A stretch of 64,000 bases of DNA from Colletotrichum lupini (Eukaryota > Ascomycota > Sordariomycetes > Glomerellales > Glomerellaceae), in the NCBI RefSeq assembly GCF_023278565.1, contig NC_064680.1, positions 3,596,001 to 3,660,000 on the forward strand. Reading direction: 5' to 3'. This document shows, in pieces, positions 12,804 to 35,723 of the stretch (within the stretch, counting starts at the first letter, position 1; each line of letters begins with the position of its first letter). The position numbers were made by a program, and so were the translations under genes. The notes under the pieces were generated by a model. The model saw nothing but the letters and a program-made list of their open reading frames with translations, ran no database searches and had not been told where the DNA came from.

Positions 12804-12817
12804 CTTAAGCTCTTTAT
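12804..12817. repeat. 14-bp target duplication, left copy
   Basis: CTTAAGCTCTTTAT directly left of the 1.1-kb unknown element; the identical 14 bp follow it at 13944-13957. This defines the element's ends. Confidence 0.8.
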
Positions 12818-13943
12818 GTAGTAGTTTTTTTTCTGGCTTTATAAGTATAAAAGATCGACCTTAACGGGATTACGCTTTTAAGGGAAATCACACGATATAG
12901 TATACTTTTTAACTATATAATACGTATAATATATCCTAAGTACGCGCTTAACGCAATATAGTGATTTTAATATAAAAACCGCTATTTAATTCGGGATAGG
13001 TAAGCTGCCCTTTACGCGGCGGCGCCGGCTAGAAAAGTTAATAATAGAAGTTAGCTATAATAGTTAGCTATAATAGTCGGCCGCTATAGTCGGCCGCAAT
13101 AATTAGAGGCGGCCTTCCTTAACCATAGAGGTTCTAAACTTTAATAGCGACGTAGAGGTTTTTAGAAAAAGGGCTAAATAGGTTAATATTTACTACTCAG
13201 AGCTCGCAAAGATTCTTTTTATCCTTATTACTTCTAACATTACCTAAAGCTACTCTCTATTTAAACTAAATAAATTTACTAAACAAATCTATTAAATAAA
13301 CCTATTAATATATAAATTACTACTCTACTCCTAGTATATAGTTAGTAATTAGTGGGCTAAAGATGCCCGTTAATAAGTCTACCCCTCTCGGGCTAGGCGC
13401 CCTCTTCGGCTAGCTCGACGCTATAGCTATCGTAACTAACGTAGGTATGCTTAAGAAGTGGCAAAGTACCTTTTAGTAGTACGGAATTTAGCTAGGTAAT
13501 ATTATAAGCGCTATAAATAGCCGGGCCGGTACGAATACTAAGATCCGGTATATTAACGTTAGCCTAGTTATAATAGCTATAATAGACGGGCTAGAGGTAT
13601 ATAGGGTTAGGGCGATAAGCCGACGCCTTAAATAGCTCCTACGGGACCCCCTGGGTAACGATAATACTTATATAAAAGAATAGATTATGCTAGACCTAGC
13701 TGCCCACGCGGGTTAGTACTAGGAGGTCCTGTGCGCGTTAGAGTAGGTAAAGCTCGCCCTGTAGGTAGCTAGAACTTAGGAGGACTTTACGTAGTAGAAG
13801 GTTAGGAGTTAATAAAAAGAAGACAACGGTCGAGTCGGTTGACTACTATTTTGATTAGTAGTTAGGTATGGAGCGTAATATACCCAGTTTTCCTTAATAC
13901 GTAATACACGGTACGGCCCCGGCGGATTGCTCCGTCGGGGGGA
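12818..13943 (+). mobile_element. 1.1-kb element of unknown type, copy 1
   Basis: Bounded by identical 14-bp direct repeats and inserted in the pogo transposon. The reverse complement of the whole unit recurs at 34538-35708, where it is flanked by a different 15-bp repeat. It is clearly less AT-rich than its host element. One end is T-rich (after GTAGTAG), the other GC-rich, ending CCGTCGGGGGGA. It has no terminal inverted repeats, no LTR and no recognisable reverse transcriptase. Duplications of 14-15 bp suggest target-primed retroposition (a non-autonomous non-LTR element or SINE-like unit whose A-rich end would be on the minus strand), but it also carries a decayed reading frame at 13363-13812 on the plus strand, so the polarity is unresolved. 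Confidence 0.75.
13363..13812 (+). pseudogene. Decayed ~150-codon ORF inside the unknown element
   Basis: From the ATG at 13363 to TAA at 13810-13812, one frame reads as a plausible protein interrupted about 12 times, and every internal interruption is TAG, as expected for RIP of CAG or TGG codons. Readable stretches include LDAIAIVTNVGMLKKW, GNIISA, IRYINVSLV, DGLEVYRVRAISRRLK, LLRDPLGNDNTYIKE and IMLDLAAHAG. The copy at 34538-35708 (minus strand) keeps the same frame over most of its length, with an apparent in-frame 3-bp difference early on. I do not recognise the family. That two copies share a frame argues it once coded for a protein. Confidence 0.5.
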
Positions 13944-13957
13944 CTTAAGCTCTTTAT
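13944..13957. repeat. 14-bp target duplication, right copy
   Basis: CTTAAGCTCTTTAT, identical to 12804-12817. Confidence 0.8.
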
Positions 13958-16816: not shown

Positions 16817-17022
16817 TATCGGATTAGAAATCTAATTTAACCGCGGTATATAACCGACTGCGCAGGGACTAATTAGGGGCCCTATTTATAATTATCGTAG
16901 CTAGCTTAACCTATAATTAGAACCTCCTTTTTATACTTATTACGTAAATATTTATATAGTTTAATTAATCTCTTCGTTAACTTATAGTTTAAACTAATTA
17001 TTTTATAATAAGAATATTAATA
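16817..17022 (+). repeat. 5' LTR of copia copy A
   Basis: 206 bp, begins TATCGGATTAG (ancestral TGTCGG) and ends in TTAATA (ancestral TAACA). It shares the core GGGGCCCTATTTATAATTAT with the 3' LTR and with both LTRs of copy B. Confidence 0.82.
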
Positions 17023-20000
17023 TTAATTAGTAATTAAATTATATTATTATAAATTAATAAAATATCTTATTATATAAAAAAAAAACCTCTTAACATTATA
17101 CAAAATAAAAAATTTATACTAATTAATTTTATAAAAATAGATAAAAAGAAAAGTAATTTTTAAATACTATACGGAATTAAATAATTATAGCCTTTTATTA
17201 CTTATGAGAAGTCGACGTTTACTACGTTAAACTATACTAATTAATAAAACTATTTAAATAACTAGTTTTTTATTATTACCCCGAGTAGCTTTTTTTACTA
17301 AATAACTTTTTTATAACTAGCTTATAATTAGAAATTAACTAGTTAAATTAATAAAAAAAAATACTTATATAGTAACTACTTATTTAATTAATTAGTATAA
17401 CGAACGAGCTTAATAATATAATATAAAAGAGTACTATATAATCGAAAAAAGGGATCTTTAAATATAAATATTCTTATTTAGTAACGAAAGTAACTTTATA
17501 AGAGTTATTAAGCTAAGAGATTTATAATATATAAAAAGGACTATTATTACGAAGATCTCTTAAGTATAACTTTAAGCTTATAATTTAAATAATCTCTTTA
17601 TAACCCCCTTAACTACCCCCCGGGTATTATTTAAAAATATAATATAAGAGACGGTTTAATAAGAGAGGAGGGGATTTAGAGGTCTTAATAATATTAAGTT
17701 AAGAGTATTATAAATCTTAGAAATTAACTTAAAAAAAAAGTAATTATTTTAAAATAGTCCTATAACCTCTTATTAAAGTTATTATTAATTTATAAAAAGG
17801 TTAAAAAAACGAGGATTTAAAGGAAAAAGAAAAGAATTTTTTAAAAAGCTATTAAAAAGCTTTTTTCTATACTAGCTCTTAGTATAAGATTATTAATTTT
17901 AAGAAATTAACTAAGTAATAAAAGGGATTATTAATAAATAATAATTACTTAATTATAATTAAGTTCTAAAAAAAGACTATTTAAAAAATATAAAATAGAG
18001 TATTAAGAAGTTATAAAAAAAAGATTTTTAAAGTATTTAACTTTACTAAGTATAAGTAATAAGTAAGTATTTTTAATAAGTCCTTAACGTTTATAATCTT
18101 ATAAAAAAGAGGGCTTAACTTTACTAACTATACTTAATAACTTATATAGCTCTTCTACGAGTTACTTAGCGTTTATTTTTAACTATTCTTATAAAATACT
18201 ACTTTAAAAAGAGTAAGTTAGAAAAAAAAGTTATTTAGAAATTATAGAAAGTACGAAGCTTAGGAAGTTAGAAATATATAGAATAATAGAAATTAGTAAT
18301 TAATAAAAATCCTAAGACTAATTATTATATTTTCTTATAGTAATATAAATATCTATTATTATTATTAAAAAAAAGAACTACTAAAACCTACTTTTTTATA
18401 TTAAATAAAAAAGAGGATCTTAATAAGTACGATAATTAGCAATTTAAAAGGGTAGTAGTAATTATTAGAAATAGTAAAAACGAGAATAGTAATAAGATAG
18501 TAAAAAAAAGTAGGAATTTCCTAGACCTTAATAAATTTATTAAGTAATAAAAGTACGGATTTATTATAATTAGTATGCGGATTAAATATATCTTTATTAA
18601 AATTAAATATATTAATAATTACTAATAGGGGTATAAATTAGAGTATAACTTTTAATAAGTTAGAATAAAAAAAAAGAGGATAAAACCCGATCCTTAATAA
18701 AATCCTAATCTTTTATAAGTAGGTAAATATTAACCCGGACTATTAGGGAACGTAAATATATAGAATTACGGATTAGCTTAATAATAAGTAAATTAATATA
18801 ATATTAATCTATTTAATTAAGGTTTATAAAAAAAAGGGCTATAGTAATAACCCCTATTTTATAAAATCGTAAACGACCTTAGTTATTAACTAAATAAATA
18901 GTTTATAAATATAAACTTAGGAATCGTAAAAGTAATTAATAAATTCCTTTACGAGCGAGGGGTATTATTAGTATAATTATAATTATAAAAACTATACGAA
19001 ATATTAATAGTAACGATTATAAAAAAAGAATTCGTATTATAGAACTAGGTATAGGTTAATAAAGCGTATAATTACTTTAATAAATTTAAAAAAAGAGTAA
19101 ACGACTTAAACTTCTTTTTTATAATTATTAGTAATAATTTATTATTATAAAAGGATATATAGAGGTAAAATATAGTACTAAAAGTATAATAATTAACGAT
19201 TCTACCTATTTCGATTTATAGCTCGTTATTATTATTAATACGAAATTCGGTATTAATTAGTTAATAAAAAAAGAAATAAACGACCCGAAGTTATTAATAA
19301 TACGTAACGACGTAGGGATCGTATATAAATACCGAAAATTTAGTAATAAATACGAAGTAATTTATAAACTTTAAAAAGATCTTTTTAAAAAAGAAATTAT
19401 ACTCTAAAGAGAAGTACGAGGTCTTATAAAAAACTCTAATAATATTTTATAATTATTATTAAAAAGTTAAAATTAGGGAATACTAATATTATTTAATAAT
19501 TAATATTGTACTCGTAAATAAAGCCTCTAATTATTATTATAAAGTAGTACGTAATTTTAATTAAAACGACTTTCTTAGTATTATTAATATAATTTAAAGT
19601 TATTTTGAGATTTATAATAAGAACTTAGAGCTCCTATTTAAGCTACGAGCGATTTGTTTTATATTTATAACTAAGATAATAAAGGGTAAATTACGAGTAA
19701 AGATCCTTAAAGAGCTTATTAATCAAATTAATAAACTAACGAAAACTTAGCTAAATAAGAGAATAAATAAGTAAAAAGTTAGATATTTCTATACTATAGT
19801 TTAGTACGTATTAGAAATAAAAATAACCTTATACTAAGTACCTAAAAACTATAAAATACTCCATTTAAAACTAAGATTTAGTTTTAATATTAAAGTAAGA
19901 ATATTATACTAAACCTATTTCTAAGTATATAATAGCTCTTATTAATAATATTAAGTTAATTAAACGTATAAAAAAAAATAAAAAAAAACTAGATATAATA

Positions 20001-34496: not shown

Positions 34497-34522
34497 CTAA
34501 TTAGTAGTTAAATTCTATTATT

Positions 34523-34537
34523 ATAAATTGGTAAGAT
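34523..34537. repeat. 15-bp target duplication, left
   Basis: ATAAATTGGTAAGAT, repeated at 35709-35723 with one T/C difference. Copy A at the equivalent place (about 17051) has a single uninterrupted copy, which proves the insertion. Confidence 0.82.
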
Positions 34538-35708
34538 CCCCCCAACAGAGCAATCCGCCGGGGCCGTACTATATATTACGTATTAAGGAAAACTGGGTAT
34601 ATTGCGCTCTATACCTAACTACTAATTAAAATAGCAGTTAACCGACTCGACCGTTATCTTCTTTTTATTAATAGCTCCTAACCTTCCGCCGCTTTTAGCC
34701 GCTTATAGAGCGAGCTTTACTTATTCTAATGCGCATAGGACCTCTTAGTACTAGCCCGCATAGGTAGCTAGGTCTAGTATAATCTATTCTTTTATATAAG
34801 TATTATTATTACCTAGGGGGTCCCGTAAGAGCTATTTAAGGCGCCGGCTTATTACCCTAACCCTATATACCTCTAGCCTATTTATTATAGCTATTATAGC
34901 TAGGCTAGCGTCGATATACTAGATCTTAGTATCCGTACTAGCCTGGCTATTTACGGCGCTTATAATATTACCTAGCCGAATTCCGTATTACCGGAAAGTA
35001 CTTTGCTACTTCTTAGGTATGCTTACGTTAGCTACGATAGCTATAGCGTCGAGCTAGCTAAGGGCGCCCAGCCCGAGAGGGGCAGACTTATCGACGGGCA
35101 TCTTTGGCCTACTAATTACTAACTATATACTAAGAGGTTCTCGTCGAGGTAGTATTTTAACTAGCTAACCTCTTAACTAATTATCTAACTAGCTATCTAG
35201 GTAGTAGTTTGTATATTAATAGGTTTATTTAGTAGATTTGTTTAGTAAATTTGTTTAGTTTAAATAGAGAGTAGCTTTAGGTAATGTTAGAAGCGATGAG
35301 GATAGAAAGAATCTTTGTAAGCTCTAAAGAGCAGTAGATATTAGCCTATTTAGCCCTTTTTTTAGAAACCTCTACGTTATTATTAAAGTTTAGAACCTCT
35401 GTGGTTAAGGGCCGCCTCTAACTATTGTGGCCGACTATAGCGGCCGACTATTGCGGCTAATTATTACGGCCGACCTCTACCGTCGACCTTTTTAGCCGGC
35501 GCCGCTACTAAAGAGGGCAGCTTACCTATCCTAAATTAAATAGCGGTTTTCGTATCGAAATTACTATATTACGTTAAGCGCGTACTTAGGATATATTATG
35601 CGTATTATATAGTTAAAAAGTGTACTATATCGTGTGATTTCCTTTAAAAGCGTAATCCCATTAAGGTCGATCTTTTATACTTATAAAGCCGGAAAAGAAA
35701 ACCACTAT
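34538..35708 (-). mobile_element. Element of unknown type, copy 2 (1.17 kb)
   Basis: Reverse complement of 12818-13943 along its whole length, starting CCCCCCAACAGAGCAATCCG and ending in an A-rich stretch, GGAAAAGAAAACCACTAT. Inserted into copia copy B just after the 5' LTR, with a 15-bp duplication; the empty site is visible in copy A. The decayed frame seen in copy 1 is recognisable here on the minus strand, again broken by TAG and TAA and by few other changes. No domain recognised. Confidence 0.78.
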
Positions 35709-35723
35709 ATAAATCGGTAAGAT
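35709..35723. repeat. 15-bp target duplication, right
   Basis: ATAAATCGGTAAGAT, matching 34523-34537 at 14 of 15 positions. Confidence 0.82.

Follow-up and report, generated by a model that had tools for sequence, protein, structure and literature searches.

A 64,000-nucleotide stretch of the Colletotrichum lupini genome (NC_064680.1, positions 3,596,001 to 3,660,000, here called the window; C7:3596001-3660000 in our contig numbering) contains two units of about 1.1 kb, inverted relative to each other, which a first-pass annotation had described as a new mobile element with its own decayed open reading frame (ORF). We conclude that these units are very probably processed retrocopies. The RNA behind them would be the spliced transcript of an intron-dense locus like L070, on the same contig, and would be either tailless or primed inside its 3' end. 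It looks as though more than 100 such RNA copies have been pasted back into the genome. Alternative junctions, strand, flanking target-site duplications (TSDs), a constant 3' end, 5' truncation, and the pattern of repeat-induced point mutation (RIP) can be read from the genome sequence. The two window units align end to end, as had been claimed, and both are full-length copies (Table 1). The unit has no long terminal repeats (LTRs), no inverted repeats, and no recognised reverse transcriptase (RT) or transposase, again as first described, and it matches no Rfam family and no known domain, in keeping with the earlier statement that the family was not recognised.

The source-type locus was reached through an ORF match at C7:2975858, near an open RT frame. 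L070 (C7:2975430-2977437; L070:4931-6938) holds an un-RIPped version of the unit of about 2.0 kb, with extra blocks that are missing from the 1.1-kb units; read from the strand that does not carry the ORF of the first-pass annotation, these blocks look like introns. It divides into 13 exons of about 21-240 nt and 12 introns of 51-91 nt with GT..AG ends; half of the introns (6/12) have GTAAGT or GTGAGT donors, and inspection by eye picked out a CTAAC/CTGAC/CTAAT-like motif close to every acceptor, with only GTAAC in intron 4. The exons have a GC content of 0.56 and a (CA+TG)/(AC+GT) ratio of 1.12. At the level of sequence, the intron/exon correspondence shows the 1.1-kb units to be the spliced form of an L070-type locus, and L070, in preference to a twin that has since been lost, is the putative parent. 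The first-pass annotation had also considered that other copies might extend beyond the ends of the unit; the source-type locus does have extra sequence, but in internal blocks, the introns, and not at the ends.

GT-AG was kept in mind when the intron boundaries of L070 were picked from splice-blind alignments. A measure free of this bias is where gaps fall when the copies are aligned without regard to splice sites. We aligned 45 copies to L070 in this way, leaving out L071, L077, L080, L081, and L082 as partial or divergent, and counted gaps of at least 20 nt. There were 507 such gaps. Strictly, 350 lie on GT/GC-AG of the transcribed strand; allowing for RIP-type mismatches, 447 can be placed there. 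None of the 507 can be placed on CT-AC, which would mark splicing from the opposite strand. Many sites recur as alternatives (L070 unit coordinates), including acceptors at 238/241/244 (CAGCAGCAG), 334/337, 415/427/433, 928/931 (TAGAAG), 1620/1623 (TAGAAG), and 1812/1817/1819 and donors at 1394/1399/1403 and 1721/1725/1757. The exon at 239-278 is skipped in 22 copies (10 + 12 junctions, 162 to 334/337), and intron fragments ending at cryptic donors are retained in some copies (e.g., L010 and L072). Junction sets are all distinct in the 42 full-length copies (the 45 without L076, L078, and L079), so these copies appear to be separate insertions of alternatively spliced RNAs. Judging from these placements, most length differences between copies are alternative splicing.

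The window units illustrate this. As placed, they differ at 7 of the 12 introns (3, 4, 6, 8, 10, 11, and 12), and copy 1 has one additional junction (1133-1201). The first-pass annotation had noted a 3-bp in-frame change early in the shared frame; the difference is real (CTC TTC GGC in unit 1, CTT AGC in unit 2), but rather than a codon-level change it is an alternative TAG|AAG acceptor of intron 6, at 928 in one copy and 931 in the other.

The ends of the copies point to target-primed retroposition, as had been suggested earlier. In the sense of the RNA, a copy ends in an A-run and a CCACYAY-like sequence (CCACCAC in L070), followed by a duplication that starts with ATA; no 3' poly(A) tail was seen. 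Among the 44 copies tested for TSDs (L076 was left out), the first three bases of the duplication are A in 42, T in 39, and A in 39. A flanking repeat scoring at least 10 was found in 40 of the 44, compared with 5 of 431 control pairs in which the two flanks came from different copies; at a score of at least 8, the counts were 41/44 and 21/431. The copies outside the 40 are L032 (a 15-bp repeat at another offset), L044 (17 bp with 3 differences), L067, and L068. For the window units, the 14-bp exact duplication claimed for unit 1 was confirmed, whereas that of unit 2 is 16 bp with one difference, not 15 bp. An empty site for unit 2 does exist, as reported: its joined flanks align across the junction to a paralogous repeat in the window (86.8% over 287 nt). 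Truncation occurs at the 5' end. L076 (481 bp), L081 (179 bp), and L082 (200 bp) share the 3' end of the other copies and have exact 14-15 bp duplications at the point of truncation; the other two of the five 5'-truncated copies fetched, L077 and L080, have no clear duplication. L078 and L079, in which both ends are present, have duplications of 15-18 bp. In long interspersed nuclear elements (LINEs), target-primed reverse transcription characteristically leaves copies with an invariant 3' end, a variable 5' end, and a target motif next to the 3' end. Here, the constant 3' end, 5' truncation, and ATA-starting duplications point to this mechanism acting on the strand antisense to the ORF. The earlier remark that the ORF and the A-rich end are in opposite orientation holds; the mobilised RNA is complementary to the ORF strand. 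An LTR retrotransposon or solo LTR was considered and rejected: such elements have short TSDs of 4-6 bp and TG..CA ends, and the TSDs here are 12-21 bp, mostly 12-18 bp, at ends reading CCCCCC..CCAC.

Genome searches covered 63,443,975 bases in 12 contigs, and since only the best candidates were scored, the counts are lower bounds. Unit 1 as a nucleotide query gave at least 50 matches, with 28 of the first 29 covering nearly the whole unit; a copy of a second subfamily (B) gave at least 65, and the antisense ORF at least 151 (150 of 411 first-look candidates scored). A genome search had been proposed as a check in the first-pass annotation, and it yielded many apparently independent copies with flanking duplications. 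Both ends were spanned in 37 of the 40 loci first compared, which had been chosen by whole-unit similarity; these 37 make up our initial alignment, as L036, L039, and L040 have no single full-span match. Subfamily B (L067, L068, L042, L033-L035, L037, L038, L041, L043, and L044) differs in exon-5 sequence, and an unbroken counterpart protein is annotated in Colletotrichum abscissum (P0006). Neighbouring copies within 1-3 kb of each other, direct or inverted, occur at L009 (C7:3850000-3854600), L045, L010, L013, and L039; such clusters could reflect shared AT-rich targets or tandem duplication.

All 37 aligned copies look RIP-mutated, with TpA/ApT ratios of 1.58-2.09 and (CA+TG)/(AC+GT) ratios of 0.05-0.50. 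RIP destroys longer duplications, which raises the question of how a source escapes. It is tempting to regard the dense introns as a shield: a source that is homologous to its progeny only in exon pieces of at most 240 nt might be spared. If true, splicing would be what allows the element to survive where RIP is active, and retroposons would have a novel means of coexisting with genome defence. However, we consider this unlikely; it was tested only indirectly and was not supported. Escape from RIP does not require introns, as L071 shows: it has none, is un-RIPped, and matches spliced L070 at 90.8% identity over 566 nt. The short copies L081 and L082 have RIP-type changes at 12/20 and 18/23 last-exon sites, respectively, but their near flanks also look RIPped, so RIP may have spilled over. 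L076, L077, and L078 are nearly un-RIPped (3, 2, and 5 of 23 last-exon sites) within heavily RIPped surroundings, which suggests that new copies were still being inserted once RIP had stopped locally.

We can outline how such copies might arise. The source locus would be transcribed from the CCCCCCGACGG end, and splicing of the RNA would often choose alternative donors or acceptors and skip exons. A LINE-type endonuclease and RT, acting in trans, would then nick AT-rich DNA reading ATA beside the element's 3' end and prime on the RNA 3' end, ..GGAAAAAAAACCACCAC(AUA). The copy, at times 5'-truncated, would be sealed with a duplication mostly of 12-18 bp, and RIP would subsequently mutate most copies. 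Action of a LINE in trans is our inference, and there are several candidates. Three open, mutually diverged LINE-type RT frames were found, on C7 (beside the unit in L070), C6, and C8, and any of them could act in trans. The C6 locus, L075 (C6:4239500-4246300, minus), has a 952-codon frame with endonuclease and RT domains, and the C8 locus, L074 (C8:4238500-4245000, minus), has an open RT frame of 672 codons; in both, the frame is succeeded by another open stretch in a different frame, a layout that would fit the presence of introns. LINE-Tad1 is among the repeats described for C. lupini, which that account portrays as asexual, with genomes of 54.5-63.4 Mb (PMC11645255). In four RIPped Tad1-like LINE copies (L083-L086), the alignment stops after ..AATAAACTATRTATATAT, and the L070 unit ends ..AAAACCACCAC|ATA; the two share only a short motif and could be alike after RIP-type changes. 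These four copies appear to end in TA repeats after AATAAACTATRTA.

Several observations weigh against our conclusion. Transcription and splicing of the source are predictions from DNA sequence. Sixty of the 507 gaps match no GT/GC-AG, mainly at a 13-bp minisatellite (unit 1260-1330), around 1050-1200, and in the exon-5 part that has diverged in subfamily B. The distinctness of the 42 junction sets is partly placement noise, although the main alternatives recur in many copies. In L078 and L079 (about 266 and 280 bp), exon 2 is joined to the last exon off splice sites; their similar structure could be due to template jumping by the RT. No convincing TSD was seen by eye at L070. Subfamily B implies a further source, and none appeared in the match lists, although no search aimed at it was made. 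The unit tail gave no BLAST match above chance to the four Tad1-like copies. Finally, over the exons that also hold the antisense ORF, the RNA strand stays open for 177 codons (GC 0.51/0.63/0.75 by codon position), with an 83-codon ATG ORF that has no Pfam match. We regard the mobilised RNA as likely non-coding.

The ORF that drew attention to the unit lies on the other strand. The first-pass annotation gave it about 150 codons, ending at window position 13812; the frame is present, but in L070, with introns left out, a native TAG closes it after 133 codons, at what corresponds to window position 13764. Among the ORF matches listed, it is indeed broken almost only by TAG and TAA. Because the L070 introns are on the opposite strand, splicing of a plus-strand RNA could not yield this ORF there. 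Inside it, intron 5 has a single junction (39 copies) and intron 6 uses two acceptors that differ by 3 nt (24 and 17 copies), and the frame thereby survives splicing, by either selection or chance. In the un-RIPped copies, the ORF is open and resembles coding sequence. In L071 (C1:3965200-3967200), the un-RIPped, diverged relative, the antisense ORF is intact at 134 codons; repeats of a CTCGCATAAGACAGCC-like motif adjoin this locus. The L071 ORF matched nine database proteins, all from Colletotrichum; the species named here belong to the acutatum group. One is from C. lupini (100% over 61% of the query), two contain the full 134 residues (C. costaricense and C. melonis), the C. abscissum protein of 128 residues represents the second subfamily, and the rest have other ends or gaps. 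No Pfam domain scored above the cut-off, and weak matches below it were disregarded (Vac14_Fig4_bd, E 0.0058; F-box, E 0.046). An AlphaFold2 model, made with seven of the nine database proteins aligned, was unusable (mean pLDDT 37). The comparison of nonsynonymous and synonymous change (dN/dS) proposed in the first-pass annotation was run on L070 and L071 and gave 0.063/0.131; it rests on 30 differences, too few for claiming selection.

Other explanations start from the same observations. The unit could have been intronless in its ancestral form, with L070 as one copy that later gained 12 introns by introner-like insertions. It fits this idea that introns 6 and 12, the 2 of the 12 that were searched singly, are found whole at no place other than L070 (one more copy holds 36 nt of intron 12) and that intronless L071 has annotated counterparts in other Colletotrichum species. 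However, no stretch longer than 9 nt is common to any two L070 introns, alternative sites are used in many RIPped copies, which also retain pieces internal to L070 introns, and no two of the 42 full-length copies compared have the same junction set, all of which makes intron gain very unlikely. Even less probable is a new retroelement family mobilised along with a sense ORF of its own, about 150 codons long, as first proposed. The pattern of stops in the matches, the annotated proteins, and the codon-position GC of the un-RIPped L070 ORF with introns left out (0.66/0.48/0.81) would suit such a family. Yet the ORF strand is opposite both to splicing and to the primed 3' end, the ORF in L070 is interrupted by introns spliceable only from the other strand, TAG and TAA arise by RIP in any frame, and neither the domain search nor the structure model recovered a recognisable protein. 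In this respect the earlier proposal is not borne out: the ORF is antisense to the mobilised RNA, and the units are very probably processed retrocopies.

We give the least credence to the unit being the 3' end fragment of a larger autonomous LINE, even though in L070 an RT reading frame lies directly upstream of the unit on the same strand. Against this, the 37 loci spanning both ends all stop at one CCCCCC end, in most cases followed by a TSD, and the L070 RT has only two close relatives in the genome (L074, 52%; L075, 49%), with its other 18 matches at 22-32%, so the RT appears not to travel with the unit. No RT or endonuclease domain was found in ORFs of either strand, and the window units are absent among the 150 RVT_1 matches listed for the genome. 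Extra loci (L067-L069) fetched as candidates for an autonomous LINE sharing the unit ends were ordinary full-length copies.

Table 1. Positions in the window of the two retrocopies, their flanks, and their splice junctions
Feature	Position	Strand	Remarks
Retrocopy 1	12818..13943	-	Mobilised RNA corresponds to window minus strand; 5' C-run at 13942, 3' end ..AAAACTACTAC at 12818
Target duplication of copy 1, left	12804..12817		CTTAAGCTCTTTAT, 14 bp exact
Target duplication of copy 1, right	13944..13957		CTTAAGCTCTTTAT
RNA 5' end, exon 1 (about 50 nt)	13893..13943	-	C-run and predicted hairpin
Intron 1 exon-exon junction, copy 1	13892..13893	-	
Intron 6 exon-exon junction, copy 1	13406..13407	-	L070 unit 846-928, acceptor TAG
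Other junctions, copy 1	after 13848, 13808, 13786, 13546, 13356, 13327, 13323, 13197, 13116, 13011	-	
Gap without splice-site fit, copy 1	13264		Minisatellite
Antisense ORF	13363..13764	+	133 codons and native TAG in L070; broken by stops in the RIPped window copy
Retrocopy 2	34537..35708	+	RNA strand corresponds to window plus strand
Target duplication of copy 2, left	34522..34537		16 bp, one difference from right repeat
Target duplication of copy 2, right	35708..35723		
Empty site of copy 2	16922..17207	+	In paralogous repeat; the Copia label is that of the first-pass annotation, unchecked
Intron 1 exon-exon junction, copy 2	34587..34588	+	
Intron 6 exon-exon junction, copy 2	35060..35061	+	L070 unit 846-931, alternative acceptor AAG
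Other junctions, copy 2	after 34631, 34671, 34692, 34920, 35107, 35136, 35326, 35410, 35508	+	
Gap without splice-site fit, copy 2	35259		

If each genomic copy records one spliced molecule, the family is an archive of alternative splicing that can be read without RNA, and it has been kept, for a single type of locus, by a genome that destroys repeats. A retrocopy may also have given rise to a new gene, the candidate being the antisense ORF, which is intact in L071 and is annotated over its full length in two further Colletotrichum species. We see the family as LINE-type retroposition of a cellular RNA that combines an intron-dense, alternatively spliced source with high copy number. In the titles and abstract openings of the openly licensed literature, we found no description of an intron-bearing or spliced fungal retroposon family, or of intron-based escape from RIP.

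Several known systems share parts of this picture. Processed pseudogenes are LINE-mobilised mRNA copies that are intronless, with TSDs, some 5' truncation, and an intron-bearing parent. Our units resemble them in each respect, with an intron-bearing locus of the parent type, but differ in having no poly(A) tail, an RNA strand without a known protein, more than 100 copies from seemingly very few sources, and a junction set of its own in each full-length copy compared. Short interspersed nuclear elements (SINEs) with a master gene, such as BC1/ID and Alu, likewise form many copies from few sources and depend on LINEs, as proposed for this family. Unlike SINEs, the unit has no Rfam match, L070 contains no tRNA (no scan for pol III boxes was made), and the source is spliced and multi-exon. 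Tailless retropseudogenes of therian mammals are also retrocopies of cellular RNA that lack an oligo(A) tail and have target duplications, and complementarity at the integration site is among the keywords of that paper (PMC5322556). Set beside them as there described, our units have one constant 3' end, and their source RNA belongs to no class that we recognise. The closest parallel may be the WEIRD RNA/MINE system of Magnaporthe grisea, another ascomycete fungus, with a 1.1-kb transcript that its authors consider non-coding and whose initial gene they did not find (PMC2104539). In both cases, the RNA is 1.1 kb with a full-length 5' end, LINE machinery is proposed, and the direct repeats are similar (10-20 bp, 14 bp in one case, for WEIRD/MINE). 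WEIRD copies are described as fused to the LINE MGL, and one to Mg-SINE, whereas the copies here stand alone and end at their own TSDs (PMC2104539). By description, though not by sequence comparison, our family also differs in its intron-bearing source-type locus and many splice isoforms; "intron" and "splic" do not occur in the main text of the WEIRD paper (PMC2104539). A source split by introns gives only fragmentary matches to its copies, which suggests why the WEIRD gene was reported missing.
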